From: an uncultured Oscillospiraceae bacterium
GTDB lineage: Bacteria > Bacillota > Clostridia > Oscillospirales > Oscillospiraceae
Direction of reading: 5' to 3'
Assembly (NCBI GenBank): GCA_944385365.1
Contig: CALWWW010000019.1
Location: 1 to 43,386 of the forward strand
Length of the DNA: 43,386 nucleotides
Of this stretch, positions 1 to 39,263 are shown piece by piece. Numbering within the stretch: the stretch's first letter is position 1; the number at the start of each line of letters is the position of its first letter. Both the position numbers and the translations under genes were made by a program. The notes beneath the pieces are model-generated. The model had not been told where the DNA came from. It made no database searches and saw nothing but the letters and a program-made list of their open reading frames with translations.

Positions 1-558
1 GTCCCAAAGCGCCATCCGCAGATGGCGCAATCCCCGGCAAAGCCGAAGGCCGCCGTCCCCACCCCGTCAGCGGGTGGTGGACGGCGGCCTTATGACGTAC
101 CCGCCCCACAAACCACGCGGGGCAGTCCGTCCACGTTCGTAGGGCGGCACCTGTGTGTGCCGCCGCGCCGCACCGGGTGACGTTGACCGGCGCATGGGTG
201 CGAATGCGTAACCGTTTCGTAGGACGCGGCATCCTTGACGCGTCCATGGCGCATTCCGTCCGGGGCCGTCATGGATGCCGGCCCCTACGCTGGGCGAAAT
301 AAATGGCCCCTGCCGTCCACCCCCGCAGGGGGCGGCGACAGGGGCCATGGCCATTGGCCGGGGGTTGCGCCATCTGCGGATGGCGCTTTGGACGATTGGG
401 GATTTCGCGCCGTGCGCGGCGCGGGTGTTTCGCCCGTTGCGACGGGCGGGTGTTTCGCTGGCTGCGGCCAGCGGGAATTTCGCCCGCTGCGGCGGGCGAC
501 CAAAGGCGCTGCCTTTGGAAACCGCGATTTTTTGAAAAAAATCGAGTAAAACTTTTAT
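1..558. repeat. Palindromic mosaic element, copy A (left end outside window)
   Basis: The window opens inside the left arm, at a GCGCCATC/CGCA-loop hairpin (about 10-29). The core holds three REP-like palindromes with a GTAG foot: 139-164 (stem GGCGGCAC, loop CTGTGT), 219-245 (stem GGACGCG) and, inverted, 262-288 (stem GGGGCCG). The right arm has an inner GCGCCATC hairpin near 367, then 7-bp hairpins with a TGCG loop starting at 406, 431, 456 and 481, an exact 25-bp pitch, then CCAAAGGC/GCCTTTGG near 500. The end is the terminal motif GATTTTTTGAAAAAAATC followed by GAGTAAAACTTTTAT at 526-558. Long open frames across it result from stop-poor GC-rich palindromes; I see no gene. Confidence 0.85.
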
Positions 559-1960: not shown

Positions 1961-2372
1961 GATAAAAGTTTTACTCGATTTTTTTCAAAAAATCGCGGAG
2001 TCCAGAGGCAGCGCCTCTGGACTCCGCGCACGGGGCGAAATACCCGCCCGCCGCAGCGGGCGAAATTCCCGCTGGCCGCAGCCAGCGAAATCCCCAGTCG
2101 TTCAAAGCGCCATCCGCAGATGGCGCAACCCCCGGCCAACGGCCATGGCCCCCGCCGCCGCCCCTGTGGGGGTGGACGGTGGGGGCCATCTGATTCGCTT
2201 GGCGTAGGGGCCGGCATCCCTGACGGCCCCGGACGAAATGCGCCATGGACGCGTCAGGGATGCCGCGTCCTGCGAAACGGTGACGCATTCGCCCTCATGC
2301 GCCGGTCAACGTCACCCGGTACCGCCGGGCCGATGTGGGCATCGGCCCCTACGAGCATGGACGGACTGCCAC
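1961..2372. repeat. Palindromic mosaic element, copy B (right arm missing)
   Basis: Starts with the terminal motif ATAAAAGTTTTACTCG then ATTTTTTTCAAAAAAT. Next comes an extended hairpin GGAGTCCAGAGGC/AGC/mirror, then CGCA-loop hairpins with stems CGCCCGC and CGCTGGC, and GCGCCATC near 2109. The core carries REP-like palindromes at 2204-2230 (GTAG foot, stem GGGGCCG), 2247-2270 (stem GGACGCG, foot degenerate) and 2327-2352 (inverted, stem GGGCCGATG, loop TGGG, CTAC foot). It stops after the GGACGGACTGCC linker without a right arm or right terminal motif, directly before the terminator of the next minus-strand gene. Confidence 0.85.
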
Positions 2373-15488: not shown

Positions 15489-15490
15489 GT

Positions 15491-15730
15491 CTATTCCATT
15501 TTGGAGCCGCAATATGGGCAGTATTCGCCGGTGCTGCGGCCCAGGTGCTTTTCGCAGTAAGGACAGCGGTAAAACAGCAGATTAAATATGGAACCCCCGC
15601 ATAACACAACAAACCCCAGCACAATAAGCGGCGTACAGTTGAGCCACATCCCCAACAGCAGTATCATACAGCCGGTCACGGCAATTCCAGCAATCACTTT
15701 CCGGATCGTACGCGGCGATTCATACCACAT
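15491..15730 (-). CDS. Zinc-ribbon minigene 3 of 3 (membrane protein, 79 aa)
   Basis: N-terminus MWYESPRTIRK (basic, cytoplasmic), two hydrophobic segments about 12-30 and 34-52, then a C-terminal zinc ribbon with Cys 56, 59, 71 and 74 (RCPYCEKHLGR...YCPYCGSKME). GGAGGTGGCATT precedes the ATG. It has exactly the length and cysteine positions of its two upstream neighbours, so it arose by tandem duplication. Unlike the pair near 2800-3465, the ribbon is at the C-terminus. Function unknown. Confidence 0.75.
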   Translation of the reverse strand: MWYESPRTIRKVIAGIAVTGCMILLLGMWLNCTPLIVLGFVVLCGGSIFNLLFYRCPYCEKHLGRSTGEYCPYCGSKME

Positions 15731-15764
15731 AATGCCACCTCCTGTTGCAAGTCGAAGCGACGGT

Positions 15765-16004
15765 TTATTCCATTTTTTTGCCGCAATGGGGACAGTATGC
15801 GCCGGTGCTGCGGTCCAGAAATTCTCCGCAATGAGGACAACGATAGAACATAAAATGGATAACTACCGCAACGATCACCAGCAGTACCCCTATCACGGTC
15901 AATGCAGTCACTTCCATCATAGCGCCCGCCAGAGCCGGTACCGCTCCGACTGCAAACGTTCCAAATACGATTTTTCGGACGGTACGCGGTGAATCTTTCC
16001 ACAT
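15765..16004 (-). CDS. Zinc-ribbon minigene 2 of 3 (membrane protein, 79 aa)
   Basis: Starts MWKDSPRTVRK after AGGAGGTGGGACC; the open frame upstream is not coding. Two hydrophobic segments (about 13-29, 34-53), then a ribbon with Cys 56, 59, 71 and 74 in RCPHCG and CPHCGKKME. Alignment with the flanking copies is gap-free. Roughly half the residues match copy 3. Function unknown. Confidence 0.75.
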   Translation of the reverse strand: MWKDSPRTVRKIVFGTFAVGAVPALAGAMMEVTALTVIGVLLVIVAVVIHFMFYRCPHCGEFLDRSTGAYCPHCGKKME

Positions 16005-16068
16005 GGTCCCACCTCCTGACACAAATTGAAACAACGGGAGCAACACACCGCATGGTGTGTTCTGTCTT

Positions 16069-16308
16069 TCATCGGATTTTGGAGCCGCAATGGGGACAGT
16101 GTGCCACAGCGTCACGGCCCAGAAATTTCCCGCAGGCGGGACAGCGGTAGTACCGCAGATGAATGACCAAACCCACCAGCAGAATCACCACGCCCACGGC
16201 CCAGAGCAGCAGGCTTTTGAAGCACACCCCCAGCAGCAGCACGCAGCCGCCGGCCAGATACAATCGTGCTACAACGCTTCGGACTGTGTGCAGAGAATCT
16301 TTCCACAT
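16069..16308 (-). CDS. Zinc-ribbon minigene 1 of 3 (membrane protein, 79 aa)
   Basis: [11 protein letters not shown] start after GGAGGTGGGACC, the same leader as copy 2. Hydrophobic segments about 15-30 and 34-50, ribbon Cys 56, 59, 71 and 74 ([20 protein letters not shown]). It is the most diverged copy, lacking the SPRTVRK proline. First gene of the three-gene minus-strand unit; the promoter is at 16333-16361. Downstream (16044-16061) a hairpin ACACACC/GGTGTGT without T tract is a relic of the terminator found after copy 3. Confidence 0.75.
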
Positions 16309-16332
16309 GGTCCCACCTCCCGGTGTTTTTTC

Positions 16333-16361
16333 AGTATACCATGGTTTTCTCCGCCCTGCAA
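16333..16361 (-). promoter_or_regulatory. Promoter of the three zinc-ribbon minigenes
   Basis: Minus strand TTGCAG, 17 bp, TATACT, with GG before the -10. The leader to the ATG at 16308 is about 18 nt and includes the ribosome site. Confidence 0.7.
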
Positions 16362-16438
16362 TGGGAGAGCCCCTGTCACCATCTCCCCTGCCGCCGCCTA
16401 TACTATATTGGAACGAGCGAATTTTTGAGAAAGCAGGG

Positions 16439-17449
16439 ATGCGTATGATCGTCTATGAGGATTGCAGCCGGTGCCGCTGCCCCTGTCCATGCCGCTGCTG
16501 CCCCGGCGGGACCGGGCCGACGGGACCCACTGGCCCGACGGGAGCAACGGGGCCGACCGGCGCGACAGGCCCGACCGGCGCGACAGGCCCCGCCGGACCC
16601 ATGGGGCCGACCGGACCAACGGGCCCCGCCGGGGGCGGCGGCATCACCGGGCCAACCGGTCCCACCGGTCCCCAGGGGATTCCCGGCCCAACAGGCCCAA
16701 CCGGACCGCAAGGCATCCCCGGCCCAACCGGCCCAACCGGTCCCCAAGGTATCGCCGGTCCCACAGGCCCCCAGGGCATTGCTGGACCCCAAGGCGTTCC
16801 CGGTCCCACAGGACCCACAGGACCCCAGGGCATTGCCGGTCCCACAGGACCCACGGGACCCCAGGGCATTGCCGGACCCACAGGCCCAACCGGCCCCCAA
16901 GGCGTCCCCGGCCCCACCGGCCCCACCGGACCCCAAGGCATCACTGGTCCCACCGGTCCAACGGGACCCACCGGCCCCCAGGGGGCAACCGGACCAGCAG
17001 GGCCCCAGGGCGTCACGGGGCCAACCGGACCGACGGGAGCAGCGCCGGAGGATGTGTTTGCATCCTATTTCAATTTTCAGTATCCCATGGTCCGCAATAC
17101 CCTGCTGGACCTGCTGCCCGATATCACGGACCCCACGGGGCAGATCACCCAGGCTGATTCCCAGCGTATTGCGTTGCAGCCGGGGTATTATCTGGTGTCT
17201 TATAAGGTTTCGGCCATATTTACGTCCCCCAATTATTTGCAGGTGACGCCGTCATATAACGGGGCGTCGCGGCTGGAGTACGGCGTCTATTTTGCCGCCA
17301 ATTCCGCCGGGTTCAGCGCCTGCGGCTCGGGACTTTTCATTATTCGTGCGCCCGCGGCCACGGTGTTGACCTTTACTTATAGCGGCTCCGCCGATGCACG
17401 GGACGGAGAAACCAATGTGACCATTCTCAAGTTGAATCGACCCCTGTGA
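16439..17449 (+). CDS. Collagen-like protein with BclA-type C-terminal domain
   Basis: 336 aa, start ATG 16439 after GAAAGCAGGG. The N-terminus is short and Cys-rich ([15 protein letters not shown]). Residues about 23-200 are Gly-X-Y triplets, mostly [12 protein letters not shown] and GVP, with a single break GGGGI near residue 62. The C-terminal ~135 residues begin [15 protein letters not shown] and have a beta-rich TNF/C1q-like pattern ([29 protein letters not shown]). This is the layout of exosporium filament proteins of the BclA type, and Thr-rich triplets are typical O-glycosylation sites. A spore-surface role is inferred. A CTATACTATATT box at 16398-16409 may be its -10 region. Confidence 0.85.
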
Positions 17450-17452
17450 TAA

Positions 17453-18313
17453 GCACCCAAACTATAAAAGTTTTACTCGATTTTTTTCAAAAAATCGCGA
17501 AGTCCAGAGGCAGGGCCTCTGGTCGCCCCGCGCACGGGGCGAAATACCCGCCCGTCGCAACGGGCGAAACACCCGCGCCGCGCACGGCGCGAAACTCCCG
17601 CCCGCCGCAGCGGGCGAAATCCCCAATCGTCCAAAGCGCCATCCGCAGATGGCGCAATCCCCGGCCAAAGGCCATGGCCCCCGCCGCCACCCCCTGTGGG
17701 GGTGGACGGTGGGGGCCATCTTTTCCGCTGGGCGTAGGGGCCGGCATCCCTGACGGCCCCGGATGGAATGCACCATGGACGCGTCAAGAATGCCGCGTCC
17801 CACGAAACGGTTACACATTCGCCCCCGTGCGACGGTCAACGTTGCCCGGTACGGCACGGCGGCACACACAGGTGCCGCCCTACGAACGTGGACGGACTGC
17901 CCCGCTTCGTTGGGGGCGGGTACGTTATCAGACGCGGTACGACATAAGGCCGCCGTCCACCACCCGCGATGGGGTGGGGACGGCGGCCTTCGGCTTCGCC
18001 GGGGGTTCCGCCATCTGCGGATGGCGGTTTAGGACGCTTAGGGTGTTTCACGCCGTGCGCGGCGCGGGAATTTCGCCCGCTGCGGCGGGCGACCAAAGGC
18101 TCTGCCTTTGGAAACCGCGATTTGGGCAACGCGCCGCCGGTTGGCAAGAGGTGTCGGCGAGGAATTTTGTGTCAGAGCAAGGCCCAGTTTCGCCGCCATA
18201 CTGGATGTATGGCAAGAAGCTGGGCCGCAGCTATGGCGCAAAAGGCCCGGCGACACCCGCAGACACACCGGCGGTAAGTTGCCCCACAGAAAAAAATCGA
18301 GTAAAACTTTTAT
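17453..18313. repeat. Palindromic mosaic element, copy C (both ends present, carries nested insert)
   Basis: Left end GCACCCAAA then AAAAGTTTTACTCG and ATTTTTTTCAAAAAAT; CCAGAGGC/GCCTCTGG near 17514. Left-arm hairpins with CGCA loop start at 17524 (CGCCCCG), 17549 (CGCCCGT), 17574 (CGCGCCG) and 17599 (CGCCCGC), an exact 25-bp pitch, then GCGCCATC. Core REP-like palindromes: 17734-17760 (GTAG foot, GGGGCCG), 17777-17800 (GGACGCG) and 17858-17883 (GGCGGCAC, inverted). The right arm has CCGCCATC/GATGGCGG, a double compensatory variant of GCGCCATC, then CGCGCCG, CGCCCGC and CCAAAGGC. The right terminal motif is split by a 161-nt insert. It lies between convergent genes. Confidence 0.88.
18124..18284. 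other. Nested 161-nt end-to-end foldable element inside repeat C
   Basis: It interrupts the right terminal motif between GCGATTT and GAAAAAAATCG. Nested helices: GGGCAAC/GTTGCCC (18124-18130/18278-18284); CCGCCGGT/ACCGGCGG (18134-18141/18267-18274) after a symmetric 3x3 loop; GGTGTCG/CGACACC (18150-18156/18251-18257); TTTTGTGTC with GGCGCAAAA (18165-18173/18235-18243, two G-U pairs); GGCCCAG/CTGGGCC (18181-18187/18220-18226); GCCATAC, loop TGGAT, GTATGGC (18195-18213). The G-U pairs exist only on the plus strand. It could be a small structured RNA or a hairpin-type MITE; no open frame is meaningful. No target duplication is visible. Confidence 0.7.
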
Positions 18314-21290: not shown

Positions 21291-21311
21291 AATAGCCAAA
21301 AAAAGCCGTTA

Positions 21312-21402
21312 TGATTCCTACGCCGGCATGACCCGGATCAGGTATATGGGTCACGGCGATTCAGCCGTCTCTCAGCCCGTTCGCGGGCTCCCCGTTGTCA
21401 GG
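21312..21402 (-). ncRNA. TPP (THI-box) riboswitch aptamer
   Basis: Minus strand: ACAACGGGGAGCCC..., CTGAGA (plus 21370-21375), a stem ACGGC/GCCGT, GACCC, ACCTGATC (plus 21336-21343), CCGGGTCATGCCGGCGTAGGAA. These are the invariant thi-box blocks in order. Binding of thiamine pyrophosphate should favour the terminator at 21255-21290 and shut the transporter operon. Confidence 0.95.
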
Positions 21403-21475
21403 CAAGGGCGATTTTTTGCGGATGGAACACGGTGCACCGCGTCCAGCTGCCAAATTCTGCGCTCTTGCATTCGAT

Positions 21476-26300: not shown

Positions 26301-26533
26301 TGTTTTTGACGCTGTTCGGCATCGGGCTGGGGCTGGTGATGGGCCGATGGCTCCATAGTTGGATGGTGCTGACGGTGGAGGTGGACCTGGTGATGTTTGG
26401 ACGGACCGCGCCGCCATATGCCTATGGTCTGGCGGCGGCCATGACGGTGGTGTTCTCTCTGGTGGTCAATCTGGCGGCCCATTATAAGCTGAAGACGGTG
26501 GATATGGTGGAAAGCCTGAAATCCGTGGAATAA
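23360..26533 (+). CDS. FtsX-like ABC permease with a large coiled-coil ectodomain
   Basis: 1057 aa. One N-terminal span (about 22-42) is followed by a ~480-residue external region. Of this, about 254-500 is a long coiled coil rich in Gln, Glu and Ala, with recurring modules AQLEETAATL and QAQYEAAL. Spans then lie at about 524-546, 574-600 and 619-645 (FtsX domain 1). A second unit starts with a span at 695-715, an external MacB_PCD-like domain 720-920, and spans 925-947, 980-1000 and 1019-1045. So it is a duplicated FtsX permease of the Firmicutes type in which the coiled coil probably reaches through the cell wall. Pairs with the ATPase upstream. Confidence 0.87.
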
Positions 26534-26545
26534 CGCCCCCAATTA

Positions 26546-27364
26546 CGCACCCAAATATAAAAGTTTTACTCGATTTTTTTCAAAAAATCGCGGAGTCCAG
26601 AGGCAGCGCCTCTGGTCGCCCGCCGCAGCGGGCGAAACTCCCGCTGGCCGCAGCCAGCGAAACACCCGCGCCGCGCACGGCGCGAAATCCCCCATCGTCT
26701 CAAAGCGCCATCCGCAGATGGCGCAATCTCCGGGGCCGTCTCCGACGGCCCCGGAGCCGCCGTCCCCACCCCTCACGGGGTGGTGGGCGGCGGCCTTATG
26801 TCGTACCGTGTCCGATAACGTACCTGCCCCACAAACCATGCGGGGCAGTCCGTCCTTGTTCGTAGGGGACGATGCCCACATCGTCCCGGCGGTACCGGGT
26901 GGCATTGACCGGCGCATGGAGGCGAAATCGATGGGGTGTGCACCGGCATGGTGTGCGATGGTGGATGGTGCGGCGTGCGGGCCGATGTGGGCATCGGCCC
27001 CTACAGGATGCATACGATGATACGAACACCGAATGAAATGGGGTACCGGGCGGGGGAAACGGAAAAGCCGCCGCCCACCACCCCGCGAGGGGTGGGGACG
27101 GCGGCTTTGGGGCCGTCGGAGACGGCCCCGGGGATTGCGCCATCTGCGGATGGCGCTATGGACGACTGGGGATTTCGCCCGCTGCGGCGGGCGGGTGTTT
27201 CGCCCGTTGCGACGGGCGTGTATTTCGTGCCGTGCGCGGCGCGGGTGTTTCGCTGGCTGCGGCCAGCGGGAATTTCGCCCCGTGCGCGGGGCGACCAAAG
27301 GCTCTGCCTTTGGAAACCGCGATTTTTTGAAAAAAATCGAGTAAAACTTTCAATTTTGGGTGCG
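26546..27364. repeat. Palindromic mosaic element, copy D (complete, 819 bp)
   Basis: Both ends are intact: CGCACCCAAA at 26546-26555 and TTTGGGTGCG at 27355-27364, then AAAAGTTTTACTCG-type motifs on each side. Left arm: CCAGAGGC, then CGCA-loop hairpins with stems CGCCCGC, CGCTGGC, CGCGCCG and GCGCCATC. Right arm: GCGCCATC 27137-27156, then TGCG-loop hairpins starting at 27176 (CGCCCGC), 27201 (CGCCCGT), 27226 (CGTGCCG, one wobble), 27251 (CGCTGGC) and 27276 (CGCCCCG), and CCAAAGGC 27295-27313. Core: 26862-26887 (GTAG foot, GGGACGATG, loop CCCA) and 26979-27004 (inverted, GGGCCGATG). GGGGCCGTC/GACGGCCCC and GC-rich mirror segments extend the arms. Lies between convergent genes. Confidence 0.9.
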
Positions 27365-27371
27365 TCGGGTG

Positions 27372-27836
27372 TTACTGCTTACTGCGCAGGTACTCCAAAA
27401 TCTCCGCCGCGTTGGTATCGGGCTTCACCTTGGGCATGACCTTCTCAATCACACCGTTCCCGTCGATGACAAAGGTCGACCGGACCACGCCCATGGACAC
27501 CTTTCCATAATTCTTCTTCTCCTGCCACACGCCGAACCCCTCAATGGCCTGCCGCTCCGGGTCCGACAGCAGAATAAACGGCAGGTTATATTTCTCGGCA
27601 AATTTCACATGGGATGCCACCGAATCTTTACTGATTCCGATCACCACCACGTCCAGCGCCTTGAACTCCTCGTAAGCCCCTGCAAAGGCGCAGGCCTGCC
27701 GGGTGCAGCCGGGGGTATTATCCCTGGGATAGAAATAGAGCACCACCGTTTTTCCCGCATAATCCGACAGAGACACGCTGTTTCCGTCCTTATCGCTGAG
27801 GGTAAAGTTCGGGGCTTTCATACCGACTTCCAGCAT
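27372..27836 (-). CDS. bcp: Thiol peroxidase Bcp (PrxQ-type peroxiredoxin)
   Basis: 154 aa. Reduces hydrogen and organic peroxides. Peroxidatic Cys44 in PRDNTPGCTRQAC and resolving Cys49 five residues on, the PrxQ pattern. Also the family segment VVIGISKDSVASHVKFAEKY. Usual length. Starts 3 bp after yaaA, another peroxide-defence gene, so the pair makes functional sense. Last gene of the minus-strand recD2 operon; only repeat D lies beyond the stop and no classical terminator is seen. Confidence 0.95.
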   Translation of the reverse strand: MLEVGMKAPNFTLSDKDGNSVSLSDYAGKTVVLYFYPRDNTPGCTRQACAFAGAYEEFKALDVVVIGISKDSVASHVKFAEKYNLPFILLSDPERQAIEGFGVWQEKKNYGKVSMGVVRSTFVIDGNGVIEKVMPKVKPDTNAAEILEYLRSKQ

Positions 27837-39055: not shown

Positions 39056-39263
39056 GTAGGGCGGGACCTGCGTGTCCCGCCGTGCGGCAACCCCCGGCGG
39101 TTACTGGACAGCACTGGGGCGAATCCGCATCCACATTCGTAGGGCGCGGCATCCCTGACGCGCCCATGGCACAATTTGTCCGGGGCCGTCAAGGATGCCG
39201 GCCCCTACGTTGTTGTTGGTCGATGGTGCATACCAGCGGCGGGACACGCAGGTCCCGCCCTAC
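39056..39263. repeat. REP/BIME-like cluster, copy E (core only, no hairpin arms)
   Basis: Four palindromes in mirror order. 39056-39081: GTAG foot, stem GGCGGGAC, loop CTGCGT. 39139-39165: GTAG, stem GGGCGCG, loop GCATCCCTGA. 39182-39208: inverted, stem GGGGCCG, loop TCAAGGATGC, CTAC foot. 39238-39263: inverted copy of the first. The inner pair has the same spacing and linker as the pairs in copies A, B and C. Terminal motifs and TGCG-loop arms are absent. Located between the patatin promoter and the rpoC terminator. Confidence 0.85.

Follow-up and report, generated by a model that had tools for sequence, protein, structure and literature searches.

The window analysed here, a stretch of 43,386 nucleotides from an uncultured Oscillospiraceae bacterium, contains short palindromes with 7-bp stems around a TGCG loop (CGCA on the opposite strand) that follow each other at regular spacing, which raises the question of what these arrays are, whether their structure is maintained and whether it would act as RNA or as DNA. 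The unit starts listed in a preliminary description of the locus all proved correct, namely 27176, 27201, 27226, 27251 and 27276 for the right arm of copy D, 406, 431, 456 and 481 for copy A, and 17524, 17549, 17574 and 17599 for copy C. Hairpins of the form stem7-TGCG/CGCA-stem7 (G-T pairs allowed) occur 26 times in the window, compared to 0 to 2 times in 20 dinucleotide shuffles, and the pattern TTTCG-N5-TGCG-N5-CG has 412 matches in the genome that contains the window (own genome; 64 contigs, 2.58 Mb), while its reversed form, used as a control, has 2. The proposed pitch was also borne out: in the fetched stretches 142 of 164 inter-unit steps are 25 bp, with the remainder at 24 bp (n = 7), 50 bp (n = 6) and 38–39 bp (n = 9). 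The main array stem types are A (CGCCCGC), B (CGCGCCG), C (CGCTGGC), D (CGCCCGT), E (CGCCCCG) and F (CGCGCCT); the own stretches hold these six and an inner type I (CGCCATC), with few intermediates. With no more than one mismatch admitted, 313 of 326 units in the window and the 58 fetched stretches are perfect, and with a looser filter 309 of 332 are. The statement that each stem is always accompanied by its matching partner applies to four units of the copy D right arm; a perfect partner is not universal among the copy D stems because the third unit (CGTGCCG/CGGCGCG) contains one T.G pair. The CGCCATC hairpin at 27138, which had been included in the range of the array, is real but is a separate inner hairpin and not an array unit: hairpin I is normally present once per arm, with the next unit 38–40 bp away in 71 of 73 steps. 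The bases in front of an array unit are mostly ATTT (133) or GTTT (106), those behind it mostly GGTG, GGTA, GGAA, GGAG or ACC, and the types show position preferences, with F found only in last place and C rarely there. The hairpins, their 25-bp pitch and the shuffling of stem types are thus all confirmed.

The arrays form part of a larger element that, read from its outer end in the CGCA sense, consists of H1 (an AT-rich hairpin), H2 (a GC hairpin), an array of 1–6 units, a linker, I, a small hairpin and H4 (a large GC hairpin). In copies A, C and D two such halves lie back to back in inverted orientation, whilst copy B and many others are one-armed (Table 1); an inverted partner within 900 bp was found for 32 of 74 perfect I hairpins. 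Any left array of copy A would fall past the contig end. The left core module of copy D (H1-H2-first unit) lies 3' of a gene ending at 26533 and its right counterpart 3' of a 154-aa ORF (27372–27836), with the minus strand being the element sense (CGCA) of the right array. The right half of copy C, in which the inner hairpin has C-G as its outer pair, gave a weaker R1 match (18071–18142, 51.6 bits). A second repeat of about 170–195 bp (S-rep; GGGCAAC...GTTGCCCCACAG) sits inside the H1 hairpin of this and some other copies (own L038 and L039, the L052 site in the own genome and G006, and the BRZ_KB bin69 ortholog of L025), as if hairpin loops were favoured for insertion. The centre of copy A (216–292) shares a 77-nt repeat with 39136–39212 (88% identical).

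Table 1. Positions of the element copies and their parts in the window.
Feature	Position	Strand	Remarks
Copy A, left inner hairpin (10–27) to right inner hairpin (368–385)	10..385		
Copy A right array, 4 units	406..498	-	
Copy A right core module	478..555	-	R1 match, 101 bits
Copy B, one-armed: module 1965–2040, array, inner hairpin 2108–2125	1965..2125	+	R1 match
Copy C left half: module 17467–17544, 4-unit array 17524–17616, inner hairpin 17637–17654	17467..17654	+	R1 match
Copy C right half: inner hairpin 18009–18026, two units (one imperfect), H2, split H1	18009..18142	-	
S-rep inside H1 hairpin of copy C right	18124..18289		Bounds approximate, by eye
Copy D left core module H1-H2-first unit, outer end	26560..26637	+	R1 match, 105.1 bits, E 6.3e-25
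Copy D left array, 3 units (A, C, B from outer end, CGCA sense)	26617..26684	+	
Copy D left inner hairpin I (CGCCATC)	26706..26723	+	
Copy D left H4, large GC hairpin	26753..26800	+	Repeat family D11; folding
Copy D right H4, large GC hairpin	27064..27111	-	Repeat family D11; folding
Copy D right inner hairpin I	27138..27155	-	
Copy D right array, 5 units	27176..27293	-	A, D, B (one T.G), C, E from inner side
Copy D right core module H1-H2-first unit	27273..27350	-	R1 match, 100 bits

A covariance-model search of related genomes, as suggested in the preliminary description, was run with the H1-H2-unit module and returned matches across the family and the order: 19 of 250 family genomes in 12 of 106 genera (E up to 1e-4) and 37 of 295 order genomes in 26 of 149 genera (E up to 1e-5), the own genome included in each case. 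Exact tandem 25-bp units were detected in 3 of 400 sampled family genomes, all from one genus (232 matches in G000, 87 in G006 and 80 in G001; none with the reversed control), and this genus is apparently that of Candidatus Avoscillospira avistercoris: the tandem scan of named genomes returned, among the matches listed, this species and the uncultured Oscillospiraceae bacterium BRZ_KB bin69, which judging by their unit coordinates seem to correspond to G001 and G006, respectively. Unit-pattern matches above background were also present in G110, G176 and G037: the loci read for G110 displayed nothing clear, the few read for G037 displayed hairpins in another context, and G176 had core modules in 19 of 19 candidates scored, yet no tandem units; module copy numbers such as this are lower bounds due to strict filters and the 16 to 19 candidates scored per genome. 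At L079, L089, L096 and L087 (G037, G176 and G005) we noted hairpins of the form TTTCG-stem-TGCG-stem whose surroundings differ, with AACTCT..GAGG coming after them. A known RNA family as the identity of the element was rejected: Rfam 15 at gathering score returned only a tRNA and a TPP riboswitch over the window, and a search up to E 5 over copies C and D gave weak matches, the best sub-threshold one scoring 26.6 bits against a cut-off of 56. No prior description of such a repeat was found in the open-access literature searched, which included the available text of PMC8040213, a paper with 3161 candidate structured RNAs. The core module hence seems to represent a repeat family not described so far, whose range extends across an order with gut species among its members.

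The claim that structure is kept rather than sequence was analysed using two alignments. In the first (A1; 44 modules picked for diversity out of 95 distinct H1-H2-unit modules, mostly from three close species with two modules from G005 and one from G176), 96.8% of cells are paired and 125 are changed on both sides, compared to a shuffle mean of 35.0 and 6–27 in slid controls, where cells are counts of sequences and not of events; further pair types did not exceed the shuffles (20 against a mean of 21.2). In the second (A2; 34 matches, 33 of them distinct, aligned from 30 searched loci across genera), 98.0% of cells are paired and 135 are changed on both sides (shuffle mean 35.9), with further pair types weakly above the shuffles (36 against a mean of 32.7, with 27 of 500 shuffles as high), figures that are biased towards the model because this alignment was fitted to it. 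Two rows of A2, the weakest (26.7 and 24.2 bits), look spurious, and three have partial structure (L220 and L221 without a unit, L223 without H1). The paired change noted for copy C was also recovered, as the outer pair of the inner hairpin switches from GC to CG as a pair: we counted 64 GC, 9 CG and one unpaired GA in own stretches, 18 GC and 3 CG at A. avistercoris loci, and 30 GC, 2 CG and one GG in G006. Conservation of the core module structure while its sequence changes is therefore supported by both alignments. What is not supported is that the array stem types usually arose through compensatory changes made step by step: intermediates are few, and orthologous sites mostly differ by whole units.

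This turnover is apparent from comparison with two relatives. Both sides carry units in 23 arm comparisons, which involve 19 own arms, and the unit string is the same in 2 of these; in a further 18 comparisons the relative has no unit at all. These numbers are not rates, because the stretches were chosen for their arrays and several of those from the relatives stop before the region is complete (for example L055 against A. avistercoris, 207 bases). In most cases whole units have been gained, lost or swapped, in agreement with the earlier suggestion that stem types are shuffled like cassettes: for the right arm of copy D the string is E-C-b-D-A here but E-C-A in Candidatus A. avistercoris, where 50 bp corresponding to two units are absent and the remainder is closely similar up to H4; copy C left reads E-D-B-A here and E-D-B in its G006 ortholog; and at L025 one slot is occupied by a different type (A against B). 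Turnover of array units as whole units is supported by these comparisons. Entire elements also vary, with 31 own unit-bearing gene ends having an ortholog in the G006 stretches (three elements, L009, L039 and L049, counting twice), of which 15 have units there and 16 have none. An H1-like motif is present at 4 of these 16 unit-less ends, as a short palindrome at L038 and L049 and as rearranged remnants at L052 and L063, whilst both L039 ends in G006 show a diverged palindrome. At L039 both flanking genes match and a short palindrome occupies the place of the whole element; it may be a vacant target or a scar left by deletion. A pattern with exact flanks, which overlooks diverged palindromes like the ones at L039 and L049, located the intact short palindrome at 0 places in G000, 5 in G006, 2 in G001 and none in G002 to G005; since intact palindromes are few, the empty sites may be deletion scars. 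A role of the H0 palindrome as a common insertion target was set aside, intact copies being few under the exact pattern.

Whole-unit swaps, together with the small number of stem types and their few intermediates, are what would be expected if template switching or gene conversion kept the arms of neutral palindromes matched, with units as recent copies of few sources and no selection for structure. Hybrid units, in which arms of two types are joined at the loop, fit such a process too and were seen in G001 among the matches listed (C9:8253, C40:54461 and C65:8509). Hybrids look rare among the units listed, however, and the covariation extends to H1 and H2 and across genera; furthermore, the bias in gene context described below requires at least purifying selection, and we thus regard a purely neutral origin as improbable.

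The elements favour gene 3' ends and avoid divergent gaps. Of the 69 outer ends in own stretches, 60 have the 3' end of a gene next to them, at a median of 23 bp from the stop codon, and 9 a 5' end, with gene ends taken from our own codon-usage caller and therefore approximate. Gene calls based on the longest ORF (34 3' ends, 30 5' ends and 5 without a neighbour) were discarded and replaced because antisense ORFs in the window had been taken as genes. By type of gap, the I hairpins of own stretches are distributed as 42 convergent, 22 codirectional, 1 divergent and 9 at stretch edges, and in G006 (781,531 bp on six contigs picked as unit-bearing, 51 modules) a module is present in 19 of 74 convergent, 26 of 279 codirectional and 1 of 79 divergent gaps.

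Such a position would suit an RNA element, in which each half forms the 3' UTR of the upstream gene (CGCA sense), terminates transcription at H4 and protects the mRNA, with co-transcriptional folding needing separate hairpins. The halves of copy D have RNA fold z-scores of -12.49 (left) and -10.30 (right), some copies have a T run after H4, and some of the other unit-less G006 ends show, by eye, hairpins followed by T runs that resemble ordinary intrinsic terminators. Nevertheless, the 3'-end bias stems to a large extent from convergent gaps, a point that counts against a strict role as 3' UTR, and in codirectional gaps of G006 the module orientation is 18 sense to 10 antisense. Many H4 hairpins have no T run, and a terminator scan of copy D found 2 against 1.4 expected in shuffles, neither of them at H4. 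Wobble pairs in the imperfect array units number 14 on the TGCG strand and 18 on the CGCA strand, and A1 and A2 lean towards the CGCA sense with 5 and 9 wobbles compared to 2 and 5 on the other strand (14 against 7, one misaligned H2 column pair of A1 being excluded from the other-strand count). Overall the strand bias is not clear, which leaves pairing as RNA on one particular strand unsupported. In another genus, two core modules in opposite orientation flank one ORF (L229, 403–478 and 1501–1576). By eye this ORF resembles argB, presumably within an arg operon, and modules in both orientations in such a seeming operon also speak against an RNA element.

The arrangement of units within arrays follows a rule that bears on the same question. 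Identical types are never neighbours (0 of 231 pairs against 43.5 expected; own genome, the 781,531 bp of G006 and Candidatus A. avistercoris among the matches listed), neighbours that differ by one base pair (A/D, B/F) are depleted (8 against 19.5), those two base pairs apart (A/E, D/E) occur about as expected (15 against 13.5) and other types exceed expectation (185 against 131.9), with 23 pairs including an imperfect unit. The expectation comes from shuffling units among arrays of unchanged lengths, which disregards position preferences, and arms shared by descent are non-independent. At a distance of 50 bp identity goes both ways: identical units are depleted in the own genome (2 of 71 against 14.3 expected), at 1 of 16 against 2.8 in A. 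avistercoris among the matches listed, show no depletion in G006 (4 of 16 against 3.0) and are in excess in BRZ_KB bin69 among the matches listed (8 of 19 against 3.3). At 75 bp the numbers are 6 of 25 against 5.4 in the own genome, 0 of 1 against 0.2 in A. avistercoris among the matches listed and 0 of 7 against 1.3 in G006.

We then modelled the folding of arrays with one linker as RNA and as DNA in the TGCG and CGCA senses. Identical neighbours are predicted to form one long hairpin. The joint fold is complete as RNA and as TGCG-sense DNA, whilst for CGCA-sense DNA it takes up a little over half of the molecules, the chance of separate folding being 0.415. For A/D and B/F neighbours this predicted chance is 0.18 (CGCA) and 0.00 (TGCG) as RNA but 0.99 (CGCA) and 0.80 (TGCG) as DNA, while types further apart should fold separately except as RNA in the TGCG sense, where linkers also pair; for X-Y-X arrangements it is 0.74 with CGCA-sense DNA and 0.33 with each of the other settings. 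Predicted folding thus ranks the neighbour classes similarly to the observed depletion. The 37 real own arrays with at least three perfect units reach a mean separate folding of 0.984 (DNA, CGCA), 0.867 (DNA, TGCG), 0.740 (RNA, CGCA) and 0.558 (RNA, TGCG), exceeding in each of the four settings all 40 unit shuffles (0.750 with an sd of 0.028, 0.548, 0.488 and 0.374, respectively), a gain that largely re-expresses the neighbour rule.

The order in which the four settings come out points to DNA. As RNA, just 16 of the 37 real arrays fold separately with P > 0.9, and the D and A units of copy D right are predicted to form one joint RNA hairpin. On the other hand, the depletion of A/D neighbours fits RNA folding no worse: the observed ratio for A/D and B/F together is 0.41, a stronger depletion than DNA folding predicts (0.80–0.99) and nearer to the value for RNA (0.18) than for DNA (0.99) in the CGCA sense. 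Taking these points together with those from gene context, we consider an RNA element in the CGCA sense possible but unlikely. The more specific proposal of the preliminary description, that transcripts would carry UNCG-type tetraloops, is not supported: the transcript of the adjoining gene would read CGCA at the 60 of 69 outer ends located at a gene 3' end, the C-G loop-closing pair in the TGCG sense is present in 123 of 237 perfect units of the six array types (types A and C), and it is as RNA in the TGCG sense that real arrays fold separately worst. UNCG-type RNA was therefore rejected on the grounds of strand, closing pairs and folding.

Our preferred explanation is that the arrays form the tandem portion, variable in unit number, of an interspersed mosaic element that is non-coding and probably mobile but not autonomous, a reading to which we attach in full a probability of roughly 0.55. 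The element would be a hairpin chain, H1-H2-[25-bp unit]n-I-small-H4, often doubled as inverted halves, that is presumably mobilised in trans, is gained and lost between species and may persist where insertion harms least, beside gene 3' ends. Its 25-bp units would be replaced as whole cassettes via slippage or recombination between sister units and copies, acting at the shared loop and linkers, with the two-type hybrids of G001 as expected leftovers. Arrays would endure when adjacent units fold separately, most likely in single-stranded DNA, whilst identical neighbours, being perfect direct repeats able to form one long hairpin, would collapse or be removed. Slippage alone could be enough to generate the neighbour rule, which nonetheless hints at a constraint on strand folding: hybrids and identical neighbours would be lost either because they are unstable, which would be ordinary, or because separate hairpins matter, which would be new. 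A stronger version holds that arrays are selected as sets of mutually orthogonal hairpins, with neighbour identity forbidden, order largely free and several hairpins present simultaneously on one strand, perhaps as a platform or barrier of single-stranded DNA at gene ends; this we regard as speculative and doubtful. Far less credible is a binding array, in which hairpins or duplex units serve as sites for a nucleoid, gyrase-like or transposase protein: the recurrent TTTCG, the TGCG loop and the 25-bp pitch could be read in this manner, but the number of units varies from 1 to 6, the search, made for Y1_Tnp alone, yielded no candidate protein, and a pitch of 25 bp does not correspond to complete helical turns (a DNA turn being about 10.5 bp).

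If the element is a mobile mosaic, its closest counterparts would be found among interspersed mosaic repeats (BOX, BIME and REPIN-like), where we have provisionally filed it. BOX of Streptococcus pneumoniae consists, in the available text, of end modules and tandem inner modules whose number varies between genomes, with the inner module predicted to interact little with the ends and the repeat over-represented between convergent genes (PMC3049150). The present element shares with it variable tandem inner modules (1–6) between fixed ends, differences between species and the preference for convergent gaps (PMC3049150, available text), a likeness that concerns layout and not the boxA, boxB and boxC modules as sequences; unlike in BOX, the inner modules are short hairpins of several stem types among which identical neighbours were not seen, often in two inverted halves. 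REPs adjoin gene 3' ends between convergent and codirectional genes (PMC3733652), and REPINs are inverted doublets with compensatory changes (PMC3116915), again according to the text available. Short high-copy palindromes, inverted pairs, location at gene 3' ends and compensatory changes are common to the element and the REP/BIME/REPIN group as described there (PMC3733652, PMC3116915), and the copy number and context are of REP/REPIN type (412 units, intergenic, in convergent and codirectional gaps). The element differs from REP and REPIN in its regular 25-bp head-to-tail arrays, in the absence of a GTAG or CGTC tag from the 4-base flanks of array units, and in that Y1 hits do not follow the arrays. 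In seven genomes searched for Y1_Tnp (PF01797), the sole transposase family searched, G000 has three hits, of which two are weak and the strong one contains an internal TAG, G006 has one weak hit, G001 has arrays and no hit, and G003 has two strong hits and no arrays; this lack of correlation speaks against mobilisation by a RAYT. The BrickBuilt MITE of Porphyromonas gingivalis, as far as its description was available, is a small intergenic mobile element, found in some strains and missing from others, holding a 23-nt minisatellite, with IS5-like terminal repeats, 4-nt duplications at the sites shown and one imperfect repeat as its unit (PMC4596501). It resembles the present element in being an intergenic element with a minisatellite that varies in unit number and in presence or absence (PMC4596501, same text), and differs from it in its IS5-like ends and 4-nt duplications and in that the units here are a set of different hairpins and not one imperfect repeat. 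No clear target-site duplication was seen at the element and empty sites that we compared, which, like the failure of the Y1_Tnp search to tie a transposase to the arrays, counts against the mobile reading. A CRISPR-like array was set aside, as the units are palindromes without unique spacers. The neighbour rule was not encountered in the available text of PMC3049150, PMC3733652, PMC3116915 and PMC4596501.

The form of the arrays amounts to a natural experiment on which hairpins tolerate adjacency in a chromosome, because every site is a small trial, and the neighbour rule makes slippage, hairpin processing and structural selection directly testable. Unit strings could in addition be used as fast typing markers. 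Elsewhere in the window, the TPP riboswitch lies at 21298–21404 on the minus strand (61.3 bits), three diverged 88-nt repeats with spacings of 274 and 304 bp lie within 15489–16154, and the ORF at 16163–17449 encodes a collagen-like Gly-X-Y tract with a repeat period of 36 nt.
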